From Saccharothrix deserti (GTDB lineage: Bacteria; Actinomycetota; Actinomycetes; Mycobacteriales; Pseudonocardiaceae), in NCBI RefSeq assembly GCF_009769385.1, contig NZ_VKAB01000021.1:124001-188000 (forward strand): a stretch of DNA of 64,000 bases. Reading direction: 5' to 3'. The position numbers and the translations under genes are program-made. The notes beneath the pieces are model-generated. The model was not told where the DNA came from and searched no databases. It worked only from the letters and a program-made list of their open reading frames with translations. Shown here one piece after another: positions 29,151 to 61,207 of this stretch. Each line of letters begins with the position of its first letter. Position 1 is the stretch's first letter.

Positions 29151-29286
29151 CGCGAGGTCGCCGTCGATCGTTCGCGACTCATTTCCCGGCGGTCACGCTC
29201 TTCGATCGTCGGGAAATCAGGCGCGAGCGGTCGACCTCCCGGGCGACCGAGCCGCCGTCTGCGGAGCAGCGGCAATCCAACACTGT
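29151..29286 (+). repeat. Palindromic interspersed repeat, copy 3
   Basis: This 136-bp copy differs from copy 1 (491-626) at about three bases and lies directly before the adnA start at 29293. An extra fragment of its left end (CGCGAGGTCGCGTCGATCG) stands just upstream at about 29119-29138. The adnA promoter must lie within or overlap the element. Confidence 0.88.
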
Positions 29287-48690: not shown

Positions 48691-50075
48691 GCGCCCCGAC
48701 CAAGCACCGCAGTGCCGAGGAGATCGGCCGCACGGCGCTCGGGCCTCGCCCGTTCCCCGAGCTGGGCGAGCAGCGGGCGGCCGCGGACCTGGACACCGTC
48801 GACACGACGCTGGCCAACGGCCTGCGCGTGATCGCGGTGCGCCGGTCGTCGGTGCCGCTGGTGGAAGTGCGGCTGCGGATCCCGTTCGGCGACCCGGCGT
48901 CGACCAGCGTCGGCTCGACGCACTCGGCGCGCGCCGAGGTGCTGGCGAACACCGTGCTCACCGGCACGTCGACCCGCAGCCGGGTCGACGTGGACACCGA
49001 GCTGGCGCTCGTCGGCGGCGAGCTGGACGCGGTGGTCGACCCGGAGCGGCTGGCGTTCTCCGGCAACGCGCTGGTGTCCGGTTTCGGCACCGTGCTGGAC
49101 GTGCTGCGCGACGTGCTCACCGGCGCGACCTACCCGGTCGAGGAGGTCGAGCGGGAGCGGGCGCGGCTGGTGGAGCGGATCCGGCTGGCGCGGTCGCAGC
49201 CGAACGTGATCGCGCGGGAGGCGCTGCAGCGCCACCTGTACGGCGACCACCCGTTCGCCAAGGAGATGCCCGAGGCGGACGAGGTCGCGGCGGTGACGCG
49301 GGACGACGTGCTCGCGCTGCACTCGTCGGCCGTGCTGCCGCGCGGGTCGGTGCTGGTCGTCGTGGGCGACGTGGAGCCGGACGCGGCGGTGCGCGCGGTC
49401 GAGGGCGCGCTGGGCGGCTGGACCGGTGACGGCACCGCGGTCACGTTGTCGCCGCTGCCGGTCGTGCAGGGCGGCGACGTGCTGCTGGTGCACCGGCCCG
49501 GCGCCGTGCAGTCGCAGATCCGGCTCGCCGGGCGCGGCTTGGAGCGCACCGACGAGCGGTACCCGGCGTTGCAGCTGGCGAACCTGGTGTTCGGCGGGTT
49601 CTTCTCCTCCCGGCTGGTGGAGAACATCCGCGAGGACAAGGGCTACACCTACAGCGCCCGGTCGCACCCGGAGTTCACGCCGGGTGGGGCGACGCTGCTG
49701 GTGGACGCCGACACGGCGAGCGAGGTGACCGCGGCGGCGCTGCTGGAGACCCGGTACGAGCTGGGTCGGCTGGGCCTGGTGCCGCCGTCGGACTCCGAGG
49801 TCGACACCGCGCGCCGGTACGCGATCGGGTCGCTGCTGACCGCGACCTCGTCGCAGGGCGGGTTGGCGTCGTTCCTGGTGAACCTCGCCGGCCTGGGGTT
49901 GGGCGTGGAGTGGTTCCTCGGGCACCCGGAACGGCTGGCGCAGGTCACCGTCGAGCAGGTCACCGAGGTGGCGCTGGAGTTCTTCGCGCCGAGTTCGTTC
50001 ACCGGCGTGCTGGTGGGCGACGCGGAACTGCTGGCCCCGCAGCTGCGGGCGCTGGGCGGTGTGACCCTGCCGTGA
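48687..50075 (+). CDS. M16-family peptidase-like protein, non-catalytic partner
   Basis: The 462-residue protein has the M16 fold, but at the place of HxxEH it reads SARAEVLAN, so zinc cannot be bound. It keeps the C-terminal substrate-binding R/Y region (DKGYTYSARSHPE near 315-330). Bacterial M16 pairs of one active and one inactive subunit are known. It overlaps both neighbours by GTGA, which supports balanced production with the active subunit. Confidence 0.9.
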   Translation: MSAPTKHRSAEEIGRTALGPRPFPELGEQRAAADLDTVDTTLANGLRVIAVRRSSVPLVEVRLRIPFGDPASTSVGSTHSARAEVLANTVLTGTSTRSRVDVDTELALVGGELDAVVDPERLAFSGNALVSGFGTVLDVLRDVLTGATYPVEEVERERARLVERIRLARSQPNVIAREALQRHLYGDHPFAKEMPEADEVAAVTRDDVLALHSSAVLPRGSVLVVVGDVEPDAAVRAVEGALGGWTGDGTAVTLSPLPVVQGGDVLLVHRPGAVQSQIRLAGRGLERTDERYPALQLANLVFGGFFSSRLVENIREDKGYTYSARSHPEFTPGGATLLVDADTASEVTAAALLETRYELGRLGLVPPSDSEVDTARRYAIGSLLTATSSQGGLASFLVNLAGLGLGVEWFLGHPERLAQVTVEQVTEVALEFFAPSSFTGVLVGDAELLAPQLRALGGVTLP

Positions 50076-51022
50076 GCTTCGAGCTGGTGGAACTGCCGGC
50101 CCTGTCGAGGTTCACCGTGGACCGCCGGGAGCCGTTGCGCGGCGACGCGCAGCGCATCGCGCAGTTGTGGCCGAAGGCGCGTGTCCTCACGGTGGACGCG
50201 CACGGTCGGACGTTGGTGGCCGACCAGGCATCGCGCCTGGTCGACCGCCCCGCCACCGAGTTCGGTGACGGTCCGCCGGACACCGCCGTGCTGCTCGGCG
50301 AGCAGGACGGCGTGGCGTACTGGGCGGTTCCGCTGACCGAGGACGAGACGGACGTCTCGGCGCCCACCGGTCGGGCCTGGTTCAACCCGGAGCTGACGGA
50401 CGAGCCGCAGTGGCTCGACCTGCGGGCGTGCGGCGCGTTGCTGGACGACACCGGCGCGGGCCTGTTCACGTCGGCGGTGTCGTTGTTCCACTGGCACCGG
50501 TCGGCGAGGTTCTGCGCGGCGTGCGGCGGGCCGACGGAGTCGGTCAAGGCGGGTTGGACGCGGGTCTGCGCGCAGTGCGGACGCGAGGAGTACCCGCGCA
50601 CCGACGCGGCGGTGATCTGCCTGGTCCACGACGGCGCGGACCAGGTGCTGCTCGCCCGCGGCGAGGGGTGGCCCGAGGGGCGTTACTCGGTGCTGGCCGG
50701 GTTCGTCGAGGCCGGCGAGTCGCTGGAGGCGTGCGTGGCGCGGGAGATCGTGGAGGAGGTCGGCGTCGAGGTCAGCGGTATCCGCTACCTCGGGAGCCAG
50801 CCGTGGCCGTTCCCGCGGTCGTTGATGGTGGGGTTCGAGGCGGTGGCCGACCCGACCGACCCGTTGCGGCTCGCGGACGGTGAGATCGCCCAGGCCAGGT
50901 GGGTCAGTCGGGCCGACGTGCGGCGGGCGCTCGCCGAGCCGGGCAGCGTGCCGGACCTGCTGCTCGCGCCGGGGGCGTCCATCGCCTACCGGATGATCCA
51001 GTCGTGGGCCGCCGTCGGCTGA
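50072..51022 (+). CDS. nudC: NAD(+) diphosphatase / RNA decapping hydrolase NudC
   Basis: The 316-residue enzyme has an N-terminal beta domain, a zinc ribbon with Cys148, Cys151, Cys166 and Cys169, and a Nudix box at about 210-232 (GFVEAGESLEACVAREIVEE). The NudC signature SQPWPFPRS follows near 245. It hydrolyses NADH/NAD and removes NAD caps from RNA. The homologue also lies downstream of the channel gene in mycobacteria (Rv3199c, from memory). It overlaps the M16 gene stop by GTGA. Confidence 0.95.
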   Translation: MSFELVELPALSRFTVDRREPLRGDAQRIAQLWPKARVLTVDAHGRTLVADQASRLVDRPATEFGDGPPDTAVLLGEQDGVAYWAVPLTEDETDVSAPTGRAWFNPELTDEPQWLDLRACGALLDDTGAGLFTSAVSLFHWHRSARFCAACGGPTESVKAGWTRVCAQCGREEYPRTDAAVICLVHDGADQVLLARGEGWPEGRYSVLAGFVEAGESLEACVAREIVEEVGVEVSGIRYLGSQPWPFPRSLMVGFEAVADPTDPLRLADGEIAQARWVSRADVRRALAEPGSVPDLLLAPGASIAYRMIQSWAAVG

Positions 51023-52210: not shown

Positions 52211-52271
52211 CGTCGGCAGTCCGACCCGCCCGTGTGGCGGCCGTGGTCCTACTCGCCCGTTGGGGGTCGCC

Positions 52272-53462
52272 GTGCACCGCAAGCTGACCGTGCGCGACCT
52301 GCGTGCCGGTAACCGGGCGCGGGTGTTGCGCGCGCTGTACTTCGACCAGCCGCGCAGCCGGCAGGAACTCGCGGGCATCACCGGGCTGAGCCAGGCGTCG
52401 GTCAGCAACGTCGTCGGCGAGCTCATCTCCGACGGTGTCGTGGTCGAAGCCGGACAGGTCGACTCGGACGGCGGGCGACCGCGCGTCCTGCTGCGGGTCA
52501 ACCCGGCCTACGCGGCGGTGGTGGGCGTCGACGTCGGCGAGACGCACGTGCTGGTCGAGGTGTTCGACCTGACGTTGCAGCGCCTGGCGGAGGCGACGTT
52601 CCCGATGGTGCCGGACGTGCACTCGATCGACGACGTGGCGCGGCGCGTTCTCGAAGGGCTCGATCGGTGCCTCGCGGACAGCGGGGTCGGTGACGTGCTC
52701 GGGGTCGGCATCGGTGTGCCCGGCCAGGTCGAGCACGGGCTGGTGTACGCGCAGACCGTCGGCTGGCACGGCGTCGCGCTCGAACAGCTGCTCAGGACCG
52801 GCACCGACCTGCCGCTGTTCCTGGACAACGGCGCGAACACGTTGGGGCAGGCGGAGGTGTGGTTCGGCGCGGGCCGCGGCACGGGTGACGCGGTGGTCGC
52901 GTTGATCGGGTCGGGTGTCGGCGCGAGCGTCATCGCGGGCGGCGTGCTGTACCGCGGTTCGTCGGGCGGTGCCGGGGAGTGGGGCCACACGACGATCGCG
53001 TTGGACGGTCGCGCGTGCCGGTGCGGTGCGCACGGGTGCCTGGAGGCGTACATCGGCGCGTCGGGCGTGGTCGACCGGTATCGCGCGGTCAAGGCCGATG
53101 CGCCGGCCGAGCAGGAGGCGGCGTTGGCGGCGCTGGTCGCCGACGACTCGCCGGAAGCGCGGGACGTGCTCGCCGAGACCGCCCGGTACGCCGGGGCCGG
53201 CATCGCGAACCTGATCAACCTGTTCAACCCGTCGCAGGTGATCGTCGGTGGTTGGGCCGGGTTGTTGCTGGGCGCGCGGATCCTGGACGACGTGCGCGCC
53301 GAGGCCGCCCGCCACGCGCTGCACCGGCCGTTCGAGCAGGCGTCGATCAGCTTGTGCGAACTGGGGCCGGAGTCGGTCGCCCTCGGCGCGGCCACGTTGC
53401 CGGTCGCCGCGTTCCTGGCCGCGGGCGGTGTGCGCCGCCGCACGGCCAGTCCCGTCGTCTAG
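52272..53462 (+). CDS. ROK-family transcriptional regulator
   Basis: The 396-residue protein has an N-terminal winged helix (SRQELAGITGLSQASVSNVV, about 28-48) and a ROK kinase-like sugar-binding domain with VVGVDVGETHVLVEV, GVGIGVPGQVEHG and the zinc motif CRCGAHGCLEAY near 249-260. It probably represses sugar-use genes, none of which is adjacent. The GTG at 52272 is preferred; a TTG at 52260 is in frame. Its stop codon touches the start of the shortened palindromic repeat. Confidence 0.88.
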   Translation: MHRKLTVRDLRAGNRARVLRALYFDQPRSRQELAGITGLSQASVSNVVGELISDGVVVEAGQVDSDGGRPRVLLRVNPAYAAVVGVDVGETHVLVEVFDLTLQRLAEATFPMVPDVHSIDDVARRVLEGLDRCLADSGVGDVLGVGIGVPGQVEHGLVYAQTVGWHGVALEQLLRTGTDLPLFLDNGANTLGQAEVWFGAGRGTGDAVVALIGSGVGASVIAGGVLYRGSSGGAGEWGHTTIALDGRACRCGAHGCLEAYIGASGVVDRYRAVKADAPAEQEAALAALVADDSPEARDVLAETARYAGAGIANLINLFNPSQVIVGGWAGLLLGARILDDVRAEAARHALHRPFEQASISLCELGPESVALGAATLPVAAFLAAGGVRRRTASPVV

Positions 53463-53520
53463 CGAGGTCGCGTACGACCGACTTCCGGGCGACCTCGCCG
53501 CCGTCTGCGGAGCAGCGGCC
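53462..53520 (+). repeat. Palindromic interspersed repeat, copy 4 (internally deleted)
   Basis: This 59-bp copy keeps the left end (GCGAGGTCGCGTACGACCG) and right end (GCCGCCGTCTGCGGAGCAGC) of the element but lacks about 75 bp of central stem. It is all that separates the ROK gene from the end of jetC, where the jetD gene would be expected. Confidence 0.8.
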
Positions 53521-53523
53521 AGG

Positions 53524-56500
53524 TCACGGGTCGATGCGGTCCAGTGCCGCGCCGTCCCACGTCGTCTGCGTGCACGCCACACCGCGCCCGTTCTTGGGGC
53601 GCAGCACGTCGTAGATGTGCATGCGGGGGATCTTGTCGGACACGCCCCAGCCGCTGGGCCAGGTGATCACCCAGTCCATGTCGAGGTCCACGAGCAGGCC
53701 GAGCATGCGCGCGATGGTCGGGTCGTCCAGCCGCTCGAACGCCTCGTCCAGCAGCACCAGCCGCAACGGCGAGAACTCGCCGCTCACCGCGTCGTAGAAC
53801 GAGGCCGCGGCGGCGAACAGCGTGACGTACGAGATCAGCCGCGTCTCACCGGACGACAGCTGCCGAAGCCGGCGTTCACGCGGTCCGCCGTCCGGGCCGG
53901 TGTCGGCGACCGTGACGGTGAACTGGTGCCACGTCCGGTAGTCCAGCGCGCGGGACAGGATTTCCGCGTAGTTGCCGGTGTGCGCGTCGCGTTCGGCCTC
54001 GATGCGCTCGGTGAACACGCGGCGCAGCGTCGCGTCCTGCTCGGGGTCGCGTTCCGCGTACGGCAGGCGGACCAGCGCCAACGCGTCGCGCGTTTCCTCG
54101 TCCAAGGCCGCCGACGGCTTCCACGCCAGCTTCACGTGCACGCCCTGGCTGGACCGCGCCCGGCCGAGCACCTCGTTCATCCGCTTGCACAGGTCCTCGG
54201 CGACGGCGATCTGCCCGCGCAGCCACTCGGCCAGGTCGCGGATCAGGTAGTCGGCGAAGATGTTCTGGTACTGCTCGTCCAGGAAACCGCGCTGTTCGGC
54301 CAGTTTCGCCGTCACCTGCCGTGCTGCGACCGCGACCGGCCGGGCGCCTTCCTCGCCGGTGACCGTGACGGTGAGCAGGCCGACGTGCTGCTCGGCGGCG
54401 ATGTCGTGGCTGCCCGCCAGCGAGGTCTGCAACGCCTGGAGTTTCGTGATGACGGTCGCCTCACCCGCGCCGCGCCGGTCGGACGCCATCAGCGCCGCGC
54501 GGACCGACGTGACGTCCTCCGGCACGTCCGGCAACGCGGCCACGAGGATCCCCGGAGCCTGCACGGTCGCCTTGAAGTGCTCGGCCGCGCGGGCCAGGGC
54601 GTCACGGGCGGAGGTGAGTAGTTCGGCCGACGTCTCCAGTTGCGCGCTCAGCTTCGCGGCCTGTTCGCGTGCCGACGCGACCTCTTCGCGCACACCCCTG
54701 AGCTCGTCGCGCATCCCGCGCCGGGAACGCTCCAAACTGGACAGCTGGTCGGCGATTTCCCTTGCCTCGCCGCCGATCGCGTCGGTCAGCTCGGCCAACG
54801 TCGAGGCCTGCGACGCGTAGTCCACGCACCGCGCCTCGGCGTCGGACTCCGCCGCGACCCTATCCTCCACCGCCGCGTGGTACCGGTGGGTCGCGTCGGT
54901 CAGGTCGGTCACGGTGCTCTGGCACTGGCGGCGCAGCACGTCACCCAGCCGGTCGGCGGTGCGCTGGGCCTCGGCGGCGGCCTGTTGGGCCTGTTGCAGG
55001 CCCTCGGTGGTGGCGGGCAGGCCGGCGTCACCGGCTTGGCGCACGACTTCGGCGGCGGCGGCCTCGCCCCGGGCCTGGGCGGTGGCGAGTTCTTCGCGCA
55101 GCTCCTCGGCGCGGCGGGCGGCGCGGTCGGCGGATTCCTGGGCCGCCTGGAGGCGTCCGTGCCGGGCGACCAACTCGCGGTCGGCGGGGAAGCGTTCGAG
55201 GTGGGCTTCCCACTGCTCGACCAAGCCGTGCGCGGCGGCCAGATCGGCTTCCGCCACGCCGAGGTCCGCGCGCAGGGCGGCCAGTTCGTCCTCGAGTTCC
55301 GCGATCCGGCGCCGGCGGGCGGCTTCGCGGGCTCCGGCGCCGATGAACTCCGCCGCGTCCTTGCGCCACGCGCCCGCCAGCACGCCCGCCTGCCAGTGGC
55401 CGTCGGGGGACACCGCGAACGCGCCGGACTCCAGCGACACCGACGCCAGCAGGTCGGCCACCACCGCGGCGGACACCGGTGAACTCGGCTCAACGGCCGG
55501 TACCAGCACGGACGCCAGGGACGGGCCGTCCACCGGAGTGCCGGGCACGGTCAGCACATCGTGTGCTGTGTGCTCGCCGGTCGTGGTCACCCAGGCGTCC
55601 AGCAGGCCGGATGCCTCCAGCGCCGCCTCCAGACCCGCCCGCGCCGCGCCGTCCACACCGGGTTGGAAGTCGACCAGGCGGTAGAACGGCGCCCCTGACG
55701 AAGCATCCCGCGAAGCCGACACGAACCGGCCCGGCTCGGGCACCTGCGCCGTCCCCGACCGCAGCCCGGCCAGCTCAGCGTCCAACGCGTTGATCGACGC
55801 CGCCAACTCCGCCCGCCGCCGCACGACCGCGTGCGCACCGTCCCGCGCGGCCGTCACCAAGGGGCCGACCCACTCGCGCGCGGCACTCGCCAGGGACCGT
55901 GCCGCCGCGGGGTCCACCGACGCGGGCACCGCCAAGGGCGAATCCGGCCGGACCTCGGACAACGGCCCGGACGTGCGCCAAGCCTCCACGTCCGCGAGCC
56001 ACGCCTGCGCGACCTCGGCCAGCTCCTGCGCCTCCTGGTTGCGCAACGCCGCCGCCTCGGTCGCCGCGTGCTGCGCGTCCCGCGCGGTCTGGCGGAGGGC
56101 GTCCACCTGTCGTTGCGCGGAGTCCAGCTCGGCCGCCTGCGCGGCCAGCGCGAGCGCCAAAGCCCCGCGCTGCCGCGCCGACGACGCGATCGACGACGTC
56201 CGCGCCACCGCCGGCTCCAACGCCATCTCCTCGACCGCGGGCGGCACGCGGCGTTCGATGGGCAACGGCTCGGCCTCGGGATCGGGCTTCGCCCGCACGG
56301 ACTCCGTCCGAACCAGAGCATCCAAAGTGGACACACGCGGGACGTCCGGCACCGAAGCCGGGTCGAGGCCGGCCACCCGCAGGTGGTGGCGCAGCGGCTC
56401 GACCATCTCCTCCGCCGCGCCGAGGTCCTCGGCCAACCGCCGCAGCAGCCGCAGCACGCCGTCGACCGCGCCGTCCTCCTGCAACCGCTGCTTGTTCGCC

Positions 56501-57540
56501 ATGTCCAACGCCGCCACGGCCGACGAACGCTTCTCCGCCACCAGCTTCTCGCGCGTCTGCAGGTCCTGGAGATCGCGGAACGCGGGCAGTTCCTTCAACG
56601 CCCCGATGGTCTCCTCGGCCTGCTGCTCACCGGCCTCCAACGACGTCAACGAGTGCTCCGCCGCCGCACGCGCCGCCAGCGTCTCCTCCAACGACGCCGA
56701 CAACCGAGCCGACGCACGCTCCAGCTTCCGCACCCCGTCCTCGGCCGCGCCCAACCGATCGGCCGCCGCACGCAACCCGCCGAACGCGTAGTCCGAGTAC
56801 GTCTTCAGGAACGTCCCCAGCGCCACGTCGGCCGACGACAGCCGCGTGATGTTCTCCCGGATCGACTCCAGATCGTCGAACGACGTCGCCAGCTGCTCGA
56901 CGAGAGCCTGGTCCAACGGCGGCAGCGCGTCGGACAGGATCTGCTCCAGCTGCCCTTCCAGCACCTTCAGCCCGACGTCCGGGTTGCGCAGCGTGCGCTG
57001 GAGGTGCAGCAGGTCGCCGTACCGGGGCGCGGGCACGCCGTACACGGTCTCGGCCACGCGCGCCCGGAACGCGGCCTCCTCCAGCACGCAGTCCGCACCG
57101 ATGAGGTCCCGCAGCTGCGCCGGCCCCAACGGCGTGCGGTCCGACCCCACCAACGCCAGGTCGTGGCCGACCCGCAACGGCGTGATGAAGCGCCACGAGT
57201 CGGTGATCGCCTGCGAGGTCTTGGACGCCTTCACGCCCAACCCGCAGGTCAGGTACTCGCCGTCACGGCACAGCTCCACCCACGCGTACCCGATGCGGTT
57301 CGGCCCGCCGTCGTAGTCGTCGAGCATGAGCCGCCGCAGCGACACCGTGTCGAAGCCCTTCGAACCGACCTGCCGCAGGTCGCCGTCCAGGCACAACGGC
57401 AGCAGCAGCTCCAGCGTGCGCGACTTGCCGGACCCGTTGGTGCCCTGGAAGATCGCGCGCCCACCGGAGAAGTCGAACGTCTGCTCGGTGTACTGCCAGA
57501 TGTTGACGATGCCGCCCCTGTGCAGCCGCCACCTGTTCAC
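53524..57540 (-). CDS. jetC: JetC: SMC/MukB-like ATPase of a Wadjet system (TIGR02680 family)
   Basis: The 1338-residue protein has an N-terminal ATPase half with Walker A GTNGSGKS at 33-40, long coiled coils around a hinge-like region (about 560-760) and a C-terminal ATPase half with signature LSSGET at 1228-1233 and Walker B LVLLDEAFERLD at about 1260-1271. In Wadjet systems JetC forms the DNA-translocating motor with JetA and JetB, which loops small circular DNA that JetD then cuts. Its GTG overlaps the jetB stop. No jetD follows. Confidence 0.92.
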   Translation of the reverse strand: MNRWRLHRGGIVNIWQYTEQTFDFSGGRAIFQGTNGSGKSRTLELLLPLCLDGDLRQVGSKGFDTVSLRRLMLDDYDGGPNRIGYAWVELCRDGEYLTCGLGVKASKTSQAITDSWRFITPLRVGHDLALVGSDRTPLGPAQLRDLIGADCVLEEAAFRARVAETVYGVPAPRYGDLLHLQRTLRNPDVGLKVLEGQLEQILSDALPPLDQALVEQLATSFDDLESIRENITRLSSADVALGTFLKTYSDYAFGGLRAAADRLGAAEDGVRKLERASARLSASLEETLAARAAAEHSLTSLEAGEQQAEETIGALKELPAFRDLQDLQTREKLVAEKRSSAVAALDMANKQRLQEDGAVDGVLRLLRRLAEDLGAAEEMVEPLRHHLRVAGLDPASVPDVPRVSTLDALVRTESVRAKPDPEAEPLPIERRVPPAVEEMALEPAVARTSSIASSARQRGALALALAAQAAELDSAQRQVDALRQTARDAQHAATEAAALRNQEAQELAEVAQAWLADVEAWRTSGPLSEVRPDSPLAVPASVDPAAARSLASAAREWVGPLVTAARDGAHAVVRRRAELAASINALDAELAGLRSGTAQVPEPGRFVSASRDASSGAPFYRLVDFQPGVDGAARAGLEAALEASGLLDAWVTTTGEHTAHDVLTVPGTPVDGPSLASVLVPAVEPSSPVSAAVVADLLASVSLESGAFAVSPDGHWQAGVLAGAWRKDAAEFIGAGAREAARRRRIAELEDELAALRADLGVAEADLAAAHGLVEQWEAHLERFPADRELVARHGRLQAAQESADRAARRAEELREELATAQARGEAAAAEVVRQAGDAGLPATTEGLQQAQQAAAEAQRTADRLGDVLRRQCQSTVTDLTDATHRYHAAVEDRVAAESDAEARCVDYASQASTLAELTDAIGGEAREIADQLSSLERSRRGMRDELRGVREEVASAREQAAKLSAQLETSAELLTSARDALARAAEHFKATVQAPGILVAALPDVPEDVTSVRAALMASDRRGAGEATVITKLQALQTSLAGSHDIAAEQHVGLLTVTVTGEEGARPVAVAARQVTAKLAEQRGFLDEQYQNIFADYLIRDLAEWLRGQIAVAEDLCKRMNEVLGRARSSQGVHVKLAWKPSAALDEETRDALALVRLPYAERDPEQDATLRRVFTERIEAERDAHTGNYAEILSRALDYRTWHQFTVTVADTGPDGGPRERRLRQLSSGETRLISYVTLFAAAASFYDAVSGEFSPLRLVLLDEAFERLDDPTIARMLGLLVDLDMDWVITWPSGWGVSDKIPRMHIYDVLRPKNGRGVACTQTTWDGAALDRIDP

Positions 57541-58706
57541 GCGGTCTCCTCATCGAACAACGACCAGCTGGGCACTTCGGGCACGACGACCACCGGCTCG
57601 ACCTCACGTTCCGGGTCGCCGTCGGGCGATGGCAGCCACCGGTGCGCGGCGGCGTTGAGCAGCCGACCGCCGTCCGTCGACACCGCCAGCCCCATGCGGC
57701 GCAACAGCTCCAGCACCTCGTCGGTCAGCCGGTCCAGGTCGTCGGTGAACTGCTTGGACCACGCGGTCGGGTAGTCCTCCACCAACCGCGAGCACACCGA
57801 CCGCAGCTCCTCGCGGACGACCGGGTGCCGCCCGTCCGGACGCGGTTCCGAGGACAGCAGTTCCGGCAACGCCAGCAGCGCGATCCGCGCCACGGTGGAC
57901 GTGCCGGGGAAGTACAGGTCGGTCAGGTAGTCCTCGGGATCGGCCGCCAGCACGCCCTCGACCCGGCACTCGGTGTACAGGCCGAAGCACGTCTCCAGCA
58001 GCGCGGACTCCTTGCGCTGGTTGCGCCGCAACCACTCCGCCTGCTCGGGCGGGAGGTCCGCGTACAGCACCACGGGGTTCTCCACCAGCTTGCGCCGCAC
58101 GGCGTGCTCGACACCGCGCGGACCGGGCCGTGCCGCCAACTCCACCAGCCGATCAGGTGAAGAAGCCTCGGCCACCGGCCCGGTGAGCAACTGCCCGAGG
58201 AGGTCGGTGTCGATGGTGATCAACGCCTCGGCGTGCACGTCCACCGTGCCCTCGGTCTCGTGCAGCACACCCAGCGACACCAGGTGCCGCAACGCCGCCG
58301 TCAACGCGCGCCGGTCGGCCACGTCGTCCACGACGGTGATCCCGGCCTCCACCGCCGCCGCACGGATGTCCGCCACCAGCCGGGACAGCAACGTCTGCCG
58401 CCCGATCCCGGTCAGCACGGCCATCGTCAACGCCACGTACGCGTACCCGCGCGGGGACATGCCGAGCACGCCGCGCGAGTCGTCCCCACCCGGCCCGGAC
58501 TTGTAGAGCCGGGCGAACCGCCGTTCCACCACCAGCCGGTAGCCGAGCACCCGGGCGAACAGGTCCTGCAACGCGGCCCGGTGCCGGTAGACCAGCGTCA
58601 ACAGCTCGCCGTCCGGCCCGTCGGCGCGCAGCAACGGCCGCCGCAGCAGGGTGCGCGCGCAGCGCACCACGTTCGCCGCGTCGATCTCGGAGAGGTCGTC
58701 GAACAT
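57537..58706 (-). CDS. jetB: JetB: Wadjet accessory subunit (TIGR02678/DUF2398 family)
   Basis: The 389-residue protein matches TIGR02678, the MukE-like subunit of the actinobacterial Wadjet type. Typical stretches are ANVVRCARTLLRRPLL, RGYAYVALTMAVL and VEDYPTAWSKQF. It is mostly helical with winged-helix-like segments and should bridge JetA and JetC. Its ATG overlaps the jetA stop (TGATG) and its stop overlaps the jetC start (GTGA), a tightly coupled operon. Confidence 0.9.
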   Translation of the reverse strand: MFDDLSEIDAANVVRCARTLLRRPLLRADGPDGELLTLVYRHRAALQDLFARVLGYRLVVERRFARLYKSGPGGDDSRGVLGMSPRGYAYVALTMAVLTGIGRQTLLSRLVADIRAAAVEAGITVVDDVADRRALTAALRHLVSLGVLHETEGTVDVHAEALITIDTDLLGQLLTGPVAEASSPDRLVELAARPGPRGVEHAVRRKLVENPVVLYADLPPEQAEWLRRNQRKESALLETCFGLYTECRVEGVLAADPEDYLTDLYFPGTSTVARIALLALPELLSSEPRPDGRHPVVREELRSVCSRLVEDYPTAWSKQFTDDLDRLTDEVLELLRRMGLAVSTDGGRLLNAAAHRWLPSPDGDPEREVEPVVVVPEVPSWSLFDEETA

Positions 58707-60187
58707 CAGTCGAGCACCAGCGCCGAATCGTGCAGGGTCAACGTGCCCGCGGCCGAGTGGATCCGGGTCGCCTTGCCCCGGGCGTGCTCGACGGTGACCC
58801 GCAGCCCGCGCACCGGGTCCGTCGCCGAACCCGAGTCGGACGCCGTGTCGCGCTGCGCCATGGCCAGCGTCAGCAGCTCGCACAAGACCCCGAGCGCTTC
58901 ACCGGACAACGTCGTCTCGGCCAGCCGGGGAGCCGCCGCCGCCAGCTCGGCCACCGACGCCGCCCGCCGTTCGTCCGCTTCCCGTGCTTCGGCCAGCAAC
59001 GACTGCTCGGTCATCGGGTCGTCCAGGATCCTCGACGTCCGCCCGCGCGCACCGCGGTCACCACGGCTGCGCACGCTCACCTGGACGTCCACCACCGGTC
59101 CGTCCCGCCACGGCGTGCGCTCGTTGTCGCTGTCGTGCTCCGGCGCGGGGGACACGTGCCGTGCCGAGAACAGCCCGAACGCCGCCGCGTACAGCTCGTG
59201 CGCCTGCGACCGTGACGCCGAGTCGAACCACCCGGCCAGTTTCAGCAGCTCCGCGCGCCGACTCGGCAGCAGCCCGCCGCCGGACGTGGCCCGCTTCACG
59301 CTGGCCAGCAGCGACCCGATCGCCCGCGCGGTCGCCTCGCGCAACGCCGTCACCTGGCTGGGACGTCCGGGGCGGTCCACGAACCAGTCGGTCAGCTCCT
59401 GCCAGTCCGGAGCTGTTCGTCCGCGTGCCCGCTCGACCTGTTCGCCCAGGTCGGCGCGCCCCAGCAGGCGCAGCAGCTCGGACCGCGCGGAGTTCACCCG
59501 CGCCAGGGCGTCCGCGATCGCCGGGGTGTGCCGCAGCACGTCCTCCACGACCATCTGGATGTACTCGACCAGCAGGTTCCGGAACCCCGAGATCTCCTCC
59601 GGCGCCAGGTGGTGCCGCGTCACGACCTGCCCCAGGTACGCGTAGAAGTCGCGCACGGTCGCGGCCAGCTCGGCGTGCTGCAGGAACAGCGTGGTGACCT
59701 GCTCGGCCAGCACCTCGCGCGGCCGGCGCGCACCGCTGATCAACGCCTCGGACAGCGACTGCCCCAGCTGACCCAGACCGCGTTCCACGGCCGGCAGCAG
59801 CTCCCGGGACACCTCCCGCGCACCCTCGGGCACGCGCAGCAGCTCGTCCACGTCGCGCTGCACCCGGACCGCGAGCTTGCTGACCTGGTAGCGCACGCTG
59901 CCGTGCTGGAACTCGGCGATGCTGGACGCCACCACCTCGCGCCTGCCCTGCACCAGGTTGCCCCACTCGACCAGCTGCCGGAGCCGGTTGATCACGTTCT
60001 CGATGCGCGACTCGCCCGGCTCGACCCGGCCCTCCCGCTCGGCGCCGGCCAGCGCGCCCGCGACCTCGCCCGCCGACAGGTCCGCCAGCAGCGTCGACGT
60101 GAACAGCCGCATGATCGCCAGGTAGGTGCGCTGGTGGTCGCGCGCGTCCAGGTACGCGTAGAGCTTGAGGCGGCCGGCTGGTTCCAC
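58706..60187 (-). CDS. jetA: JetA: kleisin-like Wadjet subunit (TIGR02677/DUF2397 family)
   Basis: The 493-residue protein matches TIGR02677, the MukF/kleisin-like subunit. It starts EPAGRLKLYAYLDARDHQRT and contains NVINRLRQLVEWGNL, VEYIQMVVEDVLRHTPAIAD and LLKLAGWFDSASRSQAHELY. It should close the JetC ring. GTG 60187 is the first gene of jetABC; TAGGGT at 60196-60201 gives a leaderless promoter. It is divergent from cobD across 51 bp. Confidence 0.9.
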   Translation of the reverse strand: MEPAGRLKLYAYLDARDHQRTYLAIMRLFTSTLLADLSAGEVAGALAGAEREGRVEPGESRIENVINRLRQLVEWGNLVQGRREVVASSIAEFQHGSVRYQVSKLAVRVQRDVDELLRVPEGAREVSRELLPAVERGLGQLGQSLSEALISGARRPREVLAEQVTTLFLQHAELAATVRDFYAYLGQVVTRHHLAPEEISGFRNLLVEYIQMVVEDVLRHTPAIADALARVNSARSELLRLLGRADLGEQVERARGRTAPDWQELTDWFVDRPGRPSQVTALREATARAIGSLLASVKRATSGGGLLPSRRAELLKLAGWFDSASRSQAHELYAAAFGLFSARHVSPAPEHDSDNERTPWRDGPVVDVQVSVRSRGDRGARGRTSRILDDPMTEQSLLAEAREADERRAASVAELAAAAPRLAETTLSGEALGVLCELLTLAMAQRDTASDSGSATDPVRGLRVTVEHARGKATRIHSAAGTLTLHDSALVLD

Positions 60188-60195
60188 GGTGGGCC

Positions 60196-60201
60196 ACCCT
60201 A
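60196..60201 (-). promoter_or_regulatory. -10 element TAGGGT of the jetABC operon
   Basis: On the minus strand TAGGGT lies eight bases before the jetA GTG at 60187, consistent with a leaderless transcript. Its position back to back with the cobD promoter leaves little room for a large operator. Confidence 0.5.
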
Positions 60202-60226
60202 ATGCTGCGGTCCGACACGTGCGGGT

Positions 60227-60238: not shown

Positions 60239-61207
60239 GTGAGTCTGGGGCGCGCGGTGGGGTTGGTGCTGGGCGTGGCCGCTGATGCGGTGTTCGGCGA
60301 CCCCGAGAGGTATCACCCGGTAGCGGGATTCGGACGTGCGGCGGCGGCACTGGAGCGCAGGCTGTACCGCGACCACCAGGCGGGCGGTGTCGTCCACACG
60401 GTGGTGCTGGTCGGCGGCACGGTCCTCGCCGGTGTCGCGGTGGAACGCCTCGGCAAGCGCAGCCAGGTGCTGCAGGCCCTGACCACGGCCGCCGCGACGT
60501 GGATCGTGCTCGGCGGGTCGTCGCTGGCCGACGAGGGCACCGCGATGGGCCGCGAGCTGGACGGCGGCGACCTCGACGCGGCGCGCAATCGCCTGCCCAA
60601 CCTGTGCGGGCGTGAGCCCCAGCGGCTCGACACGCTCGGCCTGGCGAAGGCGACCGTCGAATCCGTGGCGGAGAACACGTCCGATGCCGTGGTGGCCCCG
60701 TTGTTCTGGGGTGCGGTCGCCGGCGTGCCGGGTCTGCTCGGCTACCGCGCGGCGAACACCCTGGACGCCATGGTCGGCCACCGCAACGAGCGCTACCGCC
60801 GGTTCGGCTGGGCCGCGGCCCGGCTGGACGACGTGGCGAACCTGCTGCCGTCCCGGCTGGCCGCGCTGCTCACGGCGGCGGGCGCGCCGGTCGTCGGCGG
60901 GTCGGCCGGCGAGGCGTGGCGGACGTGGCGGCGGGACGCGGCGGCTCACCCGAGTCCCAACGCCGGTCAGGTCGAGGCGGCGTTCGCGGGGGCGTTGGAG
61001 GTCCGGCTGGGCGGCCGCACGGTGTACGCGCACGGCGCGGAGGACCGGCCGGTGCTCGGGCACGGCCGCAACCCGGACGCCGGTCACGTGACGCGCGCGG
61101 TGGAGCTGTCGCGGGTGGTCGGCGCGTCGGCGGCGGCCGTGGCCGCGGTCATCGCGCTGGTGCGGCCTCGTCTTCGGCGAGCAGTTCGGCGACGGACTTC
61201 CGCCTGA
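60239..61207 (+). CDS. cobD: Adenosylcobinamide-phosphate synthase CobD/CbiB
   Basis: The 322-residue protein has the CobD/CbiB pattern: DAVFGDPERYHPVAGFGR at the start, LDTLGLAKATVESVAENTSD and FWGAVAGVPGLLGYRAANTLD in the middle and HPSPNAGQVEAAFAGAL later. Several hydrophobic helices place it in the membrane. It attaches aminopropanol to cobyrinic acid diamide during B12 synthesis. No other cob genes are adjacent. Its last 59 bases overlap the convergent SURF1 gene. Confidence 0.93.
   Translation: MSLGRAVGLVLGVAADAVFGDPERYHPVAGFGRAAAALERRLYRDHQAGGVVHTVVLVGGTVLAGVAVERLGKRSQVLQALTTAAATWIVLGGSSLADEGTAMGRELDGGDLDAARNRLPNLCGREPQRLDTLGLAKATVESVAENTSDAVVAPLFWGAVAGVPGLLGYRAANTLDAMVGHRNERYRRFGWAAARLDDVANLLPSRLAALLTAAGAPVVGGSAGEAWRTWRRDAAAHPSPNAGQVEAAFAGALEVRLGGRTVYAHGAEDRPVLGHGRNPDAGHVTRAVELSRVVGASAAAVAAVIALVRPRLRRAVRRRTSA

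Follow-up and report, generated by a model that had tools for sequence, protein, structure and literature searches.

A jetABC operon of a type II Wadjet system was found in a 64,000-nucleotide stretch of the Saccharothrix deserti genome (contig NZ_VKAB01000021.1, positions 124,001 to 188,000 of the forward strand), called the window below. The operon encodes a kleisin (JetA), a KITE protein (JetB) and a structural maintenance of chromosomes (SMC) ATPase (JetC), and it lies between a gene for a ROK-family regulator and cobD (Table 1). All three reading frames are open, and the overlaps are 1 bp between jetA and jetB and 4 bp between jetB and jetC. The TTG start of jetA is probable, with JetA of close relatives aligning from residue 1, and cobD starts 36 bp away from jetA. 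The Pfam matches of JetA, JetB and JetC were DUF2397, DUF2398 and SbcC_Walker_B, with E values of 3e-127, 2e-97 and 5e-20, respectively. The NCBIfam models TIGR02680 and TIGR02678 scored 727 and 134.5 bits, both above cut-off, and TIGR02677 matched JetA with 161 bits, 4.9 bits below its curated cut-off of 165.85. The PADLOC models JetA2, JetB2 and JetC2 gave 675, 400 and 1251 bits, respectively. By family the three proteins are those of Wadjet type II, and for JetA this is clear from Pfam and PADLOC. JetC has all of its ATPase motifs, namely Walker A (GTNGSGKS), the signature (LSSGETR) and Walker B (LLDEAFERLD).

JetD, described as the effector of Wadjet in PMC10586767, according to which most work to date concerns type I, is missing. 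The JetD profile gave no match at E <= 1 across the 19-kb window locus, and the operon lacks the JetD nuclease (DUF3323 plus DUF2399) of type II systems. A first-pass annotation, made from the letters of the window, had described jetABC as intact, full length and coupled, jetD as absent, and the 61 bp between jetC and the ROK gene as filled by a repeat; the open frames, overlaps, family scans and profile search confirmed each of these points. In relatives, the same junction region is occupied by jetD, by what remains of it, or by other genes.

Table 1. Features of the jetABC locus in the window
Feature	Position	Strand	Remarks
ROK-family regulator gene	52260..53462	+	convergent with jetC
jetC-ROK junction	53463..53523	.	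61 bp; incomplete copy of a repeat dispersed in the genome
jetC	53524..57540	-	1338 aa; SMC ATPase, TIGR02680
jetB	57537..58706	-	389 aa; KITE, DUF2398/TIGR02678
jetA	58706..60202	-	498 aa; kleisin, DUF2397/TIGR02677-like; probable TTG start
cobD/cbiB gene	60239..61207	+	Pfam CobD_Cbib, E 3e-97; divergent from jetA; anchors synteny across the lineage

To place the operon, 60 genomes of the family were scored with the JetA profile PDLC00541. A high-scoring group contained 35 genomes and the rest scored low; G037, G042 and G048 were dropped because their high-scoring JetA belongs to another lineage with the order C-A-B-D, leaving 32 of the 60 genomes. A contig scan for relatives contributed the best 80 of 138 confirmed loci, from Saccharothrix, Lentzea, Umezawaea, Kibdelosporangium, Kutzneria, Crossiella, Actinokineospora, Saccharopolyspora, Actinopolyspora and other genera, with one Nocardiopsis. 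After removal of 14 of the 32 survey loci, which duplicated contig-scan loci, and of L216 (contig end) and L203 (short downstream), a tree of 96 loci was built, in which the row nearest to the window was Saccharothrix sp. ALI-22-I (95%). cobD was divergent from jetA at a distance of 37-681 bp in 75 of the 80 contig-scan loci, the five others being four Actinophytocola and the Nocardiopsis, and it was found in 31 of the 32 survey loci. For the 31 loci with cobD, the neighbour-gene tree and the JetABC tree had the same main split, with local differences. This conserved synteny, together with the matching neighbour-gene tree, indicates that the locus is linked to cobD and passed on mostly by vertical descent in this lineage of Pseudonocardiaceae and their kin. 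Most Saccharothrix loci have a ROK gene at this position too, as do Umezawaea, G022 and G032.

Across the 96 loci JetD was motif-intact in 17, had its conserved active-site Glu replaced in 30, was reduced to an N-terminal half in 6, had a TIR domain instead of Toprim in 1 and was not found in 42. The intact proteins are full, are encoded downstream of jetC and carry a CENP-like Glu motif and a GDFD-like DxD motif. The Glu-replaced, or broken, genes are full-length-like open reading frames (ORFs) with R, H, A, S, T, M or Q in place of Glu, and the second Asp of DxD was also replaced in the 17 contig-scan Lentzea and in G051. The N-terminal halves end before the Toprim domain. In the group of the window (Saccharothrix, Actinosynnema, G021 and G059), 13 loci had no JetD and one had the TIR fusion, so that a Toprim JetD was missing from all 14 rows. 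In the tree this group adjoins Umezawaea with G022 (N-terminal half), Lentzea (broken) and G032 (broken), and the order jetC, JetD or remnant, ROK persists in G032, G022 and both Umezawaea. Clades without jetD span several genera, such as Kibdelosporangium, Crossiella and Saccharothrix. In 11 of the 17 Lentzea (L154, L155, L160-L162, L164, L166-L168, L174 and L227) the Glu-less jetD is located 1.4-2.6 kb past jetC, and it stays open despite the other DNA between. The N-terminal Phe or Leu of JetB did not track the loss of JetD: Saccharothrix mostly keep Phe without JetD, and A. iranica has Leu with an intact JetD. The IFDR motif of type I is reported to contact JetD (PMC10586767).

The JetD profile was run with filters off on every frame of 50 codons or more. 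It found JetD in 21 of 23 control loci of other Wadjet II lineages, the two missed loci giving no match in a TIGR02679 search either, and Glu and DxD are present in each of the 21 JetDs found in these controls. There was no match at E <= 1 in the 33 contig-scan and 17 survey loci without jetD; the same profile does pick up the TIR fusion in locus L207. In an hhalign alignment of the type II and type I JetD profiles, Glu and Asp coincided (probability 84%, E 8e-6), and their spacing of 43 residues, counted on L250, equals that of E236 and D279 in MksG. Ala mutants of these two MksG residues are reported to be drastically impaired in nuclease activity (PMC10123090), and conservation of the JetD active site in clostridia is described in PMC12287153. 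A PDB sequence search with JetD returned three ferredoxin-type matches only.

The first-pass annotation had named, as a finding that would speak against it, a lineage that never had an adjacent jetD; this does not apply, as the 17 motif-intact genes lie downstream of jetC. In other families of the class, 9 of 10 loci had jetD beside jetC or jetB with both motifs, and homologous remnants occupy the same place within the lineage, which makes an armed ancestor likely. The tenth locus, L272 (G270), whose JetA is 54% identical to that of the window, had no JetD found and, together with the Nocardiopsis locus L228, is a hint that disarming also took place outside Pseudonocardiaceae. On the assumption that activity is never regained after loss, the 96-locus tree contains 14 maximal disarmed clades, the outgroup Nocardiopsis included, or 12 when Glu-to-Gln is counted as armed. 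A single ancestral disarming, taken from a 32-locus tree with its seven intact loci on one side of a branch, was overturned by the 96 loci: A. iranica is intact although its group is broken, and the armed clade contains disarmed members, namely three Actinopolyspora, S. soli and S. rectivirgula.

The repeat at the jetC-ROK junction is dispersed and partly palindromic, with copies in the window at 576-613, 29236-29273 and 53463-53523 and at least 40 matches genome-wide. The 40 matches were scored from 231 candidates, and the longer genomic copies have the right half of the junction repeat in common. The first-pass annotation had proposed that jetD was lost by recombination between repeat copies and had suggested comparing the junction in related strains. 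Eleven Saccharothrix loci were fetched and 10 were used, L216 ending inside jetC; these 10 had no match to the junction repeat at E <= 1e-3 and no Toprim JetD. In the nearest relative, ALI-22-I (L202), jetC runs directly up to a shortened ROK gene, and both the repeat and jetD are missing. In S. yanglingensis 25 bp separate jetC from the ROK match, and in S. carnea, S. luteola and S26 other genes lie in between. ALI-22-I could itself have lost a repeat, yet the missing jetD is common to the whole group. Since the absence of a Toprim JetD is shared in this way, it is probably older than the repeat copy of the window, and ALI-22-I and the repeat-free Saccharothrix loci rule out a repeat scar.

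The ratio of nonsynonymous to synonymous substitutions (dN/dS) was determined by the Nei-Gojobori method for 21 pairs, of which 9 were jetD-less, 5 broken, 2 N-terminal half and 5 armed. The median values for JetA, JetB and JetC were 0.09, 0.21 and 0.13 in jetD-less pairs and 0.08, 0.17 and 0.12 in armed pairs, with CobD at 0.14 and 0.12, respectively. In broken pairs they were 0.11, 0.14 and 0.17 (CobD 0.14), and in N-terminal half pairs 0.08, 0.16 and 0.21 (CobD 0.10). There was no clear relaxation of JetABC, the jetD-less medians being like those of armed relatives and of cobD. The ATPase motifs of JetC were complete in 95 of the 96 loci; in one jetD-less species (L097, G057) the end of Walker B was lost by an apparent frameshift or a sequencing error. 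The broken JetD of Lentzea was also constrained, with dN/dS of 0.17-0.40 (15 pairs, six loci), and the N-terminal half JetD of G001 and G047, the one pair measured, had 0.23. These low values suggest that the broken and truncated remnants are probably still used.

We favour, with moderate confidence, the reading that this type II Wadjet was disarmed and has been retained for another job, extruding loops without cutting, in parallel to the proposed origin of MksBEF. JetC, JetA and JetB would form a chromosomal SMC complex whose JetD nuclease was lost. At the same cobD-linked locus in Pseudonocardiaceae and kin, JetD would have been disarmed repeatedly, by Glu replacement, truncation to the N-terminal half or deletion, with JetABC remaining under purifying selection. 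The Glu-less JetDs are predicted to be inactive, and JetABC would still load on DNA and extrude it with ATP, without cutting. Extrusion alone would suffice for the retained job, which by analogy with MksBEF is most likely the organisation or segregation of chromosomes. In the line of the window, loss of Glu or of Toprim presumably came first, complete deletion of jetD in the Saccharothrix/Actinosynnema group would have followed, and the repeat would have been inserted later. The first-pass suggestion that the complex was kept for another use fits the loss of jetD and the purifying selection on JetABC, and that part of it is supported; recombination between repeats and a nuclease from elsewhere are not.

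Several points weigh against this reading. The role in chromosome organisation is argued by analogy with MksBEF, and the window genome also has an armed jetDABC set. The two nearest outgroup loci, L228 and L272, lack JetD as well, and the case for an armed ancestor depends on the homologous JetD remnants and on loci at a greater distance. If regain is allowed, 5 changes are enough by parsimony, and the tree was built by a quick method. The term "broken" refers to motifs, and some activity may persist where Gln has replaced Glu, in three Actinopolyspora and one Actinokineospora. The contig-scan loci covered at most 10 kb downstream, and a relocated jetD is possible there. The pairs for dN/dS were chosen by hand; the pair of the window and G021 was higher, with 0.36 for JetB and 0.33 for JetC (the jetD-less maxima), and the very close jetD-less pair G021 and G059, outside the 21, had 0.35 for JetB at a dS of 0.02. 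The lineage is also dispensable, being missing from 28 of the 60 family genomes.

Among known systems, Wadjet type II (JetABCD II; TIGR02677-02680; nvJET of N. vireti) has the same JetA, JetB and JetC families as the window, and its order A-B-C-D is shared by the armed relatives; it differs in that the window locus has no JetD and that most relatives have a JetD that is motif-broken, truncated or not found. The JetC profile matches JetC of PDB 9qe0/9qe1 (E 2.8e-98), which we infer to be nvJET; nvJET is reported to cleave naked circular DNA (PMC12647877). MksBEF of Pseudomonas aeruginosa is nuclease-less and acts in chromosome organisation. The window has likewise an SMC-kleisin-KITE operon without a nuclease, retained by selection, for which such a role is predicted by analogy. 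In contrast to MksBEF, the JetC of the window is of type II (JetC2), and the one locus occurs in armed, broken, truncated and empty form. By family this JetC is a TIGR02680/JetC2 protein and matches JetC1 models only weakly. MksBEFG of Corynebacterium glutamicum and EptABCD of Mycobacterium smegmatis have the same SMC-kleisin-KITE core and are described as anti-plasmid systems (PMC10123090, PMC10586767); unlike the window, both carry a fourth subunit, and MksG is reported as an active nuclease. MksBEF, and perhaps MukBEF, have been proposed to derive from plasmid-cutting Wadjet (PMC10586767). More tentatively, JetABC II might be a general sensor of DNA circles or loops with the JetD N-domain as a modular adaptor, the Toprim domain having been dropped often in parallel in Pseudonocardiaceae and once exchanged for TIR. 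The bare motor would then have become a second chromosomal condensin, a conversion from defence to housekeeping with all stages in one family.

A rather doubtful alternative is immunity without cutting, in which JetABC would extrude and compact small circular DNA and silence or mis-segregate plasmids, as Smc5/6 has been proposed to act on viral circles (PMC10586767). It would account for a circle-sensing JetABC being kept after loss of the nuclease, but vertical inheritance at one chromosomal site beside a biosynthetic gene is unlike a mobile defence locus.

An exchange of effectors, in which a DUF3323 docking module couples varying effectors to JetABC and TIR or an unlinked effector replaces Toprim, is an improbable explanation. 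Evidence for it comes from Saccharothrix sp. S26, where a gene at L207:16008-17120, between jetC and ROK, encodes DUF3323 (E 1e-23) and TIR_2 (E 1e-24). G088, from the genus of the window and outside the 96-locus tree, has the same domains (L249:10819-11931) in the order jetABC, fusion, ROK. The two fusions, 89% identical with dN/dS of 0.17, are a candidate effector exchange in two genomes of this genus; the 357-aa gene between jetC and the fusion in S26 encodes a flavin mononucleotide (FMN) oxidoreductase. The N-terminal half JetD kept in 6 of the 96 loci, with its low dN/dS in one pair, points the same way. So does Lamassu (LmuABC), whose SMC-like sensor has swappable effectors including TIR (PMC10586767), although Lamassu has a different SMC-like protein and no JetA or JetB, and the window has no effector. 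Against the exchange, the two cases amount to 1 of 150 family genomes and 1 of 80 contig-scan loci; in the 150, the match spanned the full length only in G088, and in 25 others it was to the JetD N-domain or to the TIR portion. Furthermore, no DUF3323-type protein was detectable near the window or other jetD-less loci. Clustering of genes within 3 kb downstream of jetC in 46 loci gave no replacement effector common to most of them, gene families not being searched there. The largest clusters were ROK (12 loci), homologues of the ORF at 49910-51022 of the window (9 loci) and another of 6 loci, and the genes nearest jetC in 10 loci were unrelated by eye, no Pfam search having been made.

The first-pass annotation had also offered a nuclease supplied from elsewhere and had proposed a genome-wide search for TIGR02679. 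In the window genome (G000) this search gave one full match, at C1:628016-629134 (309.5 bits), and a fragment on C8. The C1 jetD carries Glu and DxD and is followed by its own jetA and TIGR02680 jetC, so it belongs to a second, separate set. That set (C1:628016-636004; L001, L003 and L139) is a type II Wadjet of a distant lineage in the order jetD-A-B-C. The fragment at C8:341700-341894 (L002) is an N-terminal piece of JetD, by eye like the C1 jetD and probably a decayed duplicate. There was no type I JetD_C match in this genome. Seventeen jetD-less genomes of the 60-genome survey were searched whole at E <= 0.001. A TIGR02679 match was present in 8, that of G029 being only a fragment with two stops, and absent from 9. 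Three of the 17 had a type I JetD_C (PF09983) match, among them G031 and G055, which have no TIGR02679 match. Neither was found in 7 (G006, G008, G021, G023, G027, G043 and G059), two of them from the genus of the window, which indicates that JetABC can persist without a recognisable JetD. Although a full C1 jetD and the matches in other genomes exist, its having its own partners, with JetB and JetC about 30% identical to those of the window, and the seven genomes without any match make service in trans by this or another JetD very unlikely.

Finally, the idea of a defence remnant that has been decaying since jetD was lost, for which the 28 of 60 genomes without the lineage and the apparent frameshift in G057 could speak, is already disfavoured and scarcely credible given the medians like those of armed relatives and CobD, the ATPase motifs complete in 95 of the 96 loci and the jetD-less clades of several genera.

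With the disarmed extruder as the favoured reading, the disarming of this chromosomal Wadjet II is recurrent and lineage-wide, and thus wider than the single locus first described. In the open-access literature searched, with most subscription papers and all preprints outside, we found no report of such a JetD-less Wadjet series in general or in these genera, and no sign of a described DUF3323-TIR Wadjet fusion. One orthologous locus of soil actinomycetes presents armed, motif-broken, truncated, TIR-swapped and empty states with similar selection on JetABC in the measured pairs, so that a passage from immunity to chromosome management can be tested directly. In Actinobacteria, 42% are reported to have Wadjet (PMC10482375), and calling JetABC without checking JetD and its Glu and DxD could over-count plasmid defence there.

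JetABC-like loci of other lineages in G054 (L143) and G051 (L148, on C28) had no JetD found and are possible further disarmed cases. In four Saccharothrix loci (L157, L202, L207 and L218) JetC was 1404-1461 aa long, compared with 1338 aa in the window.

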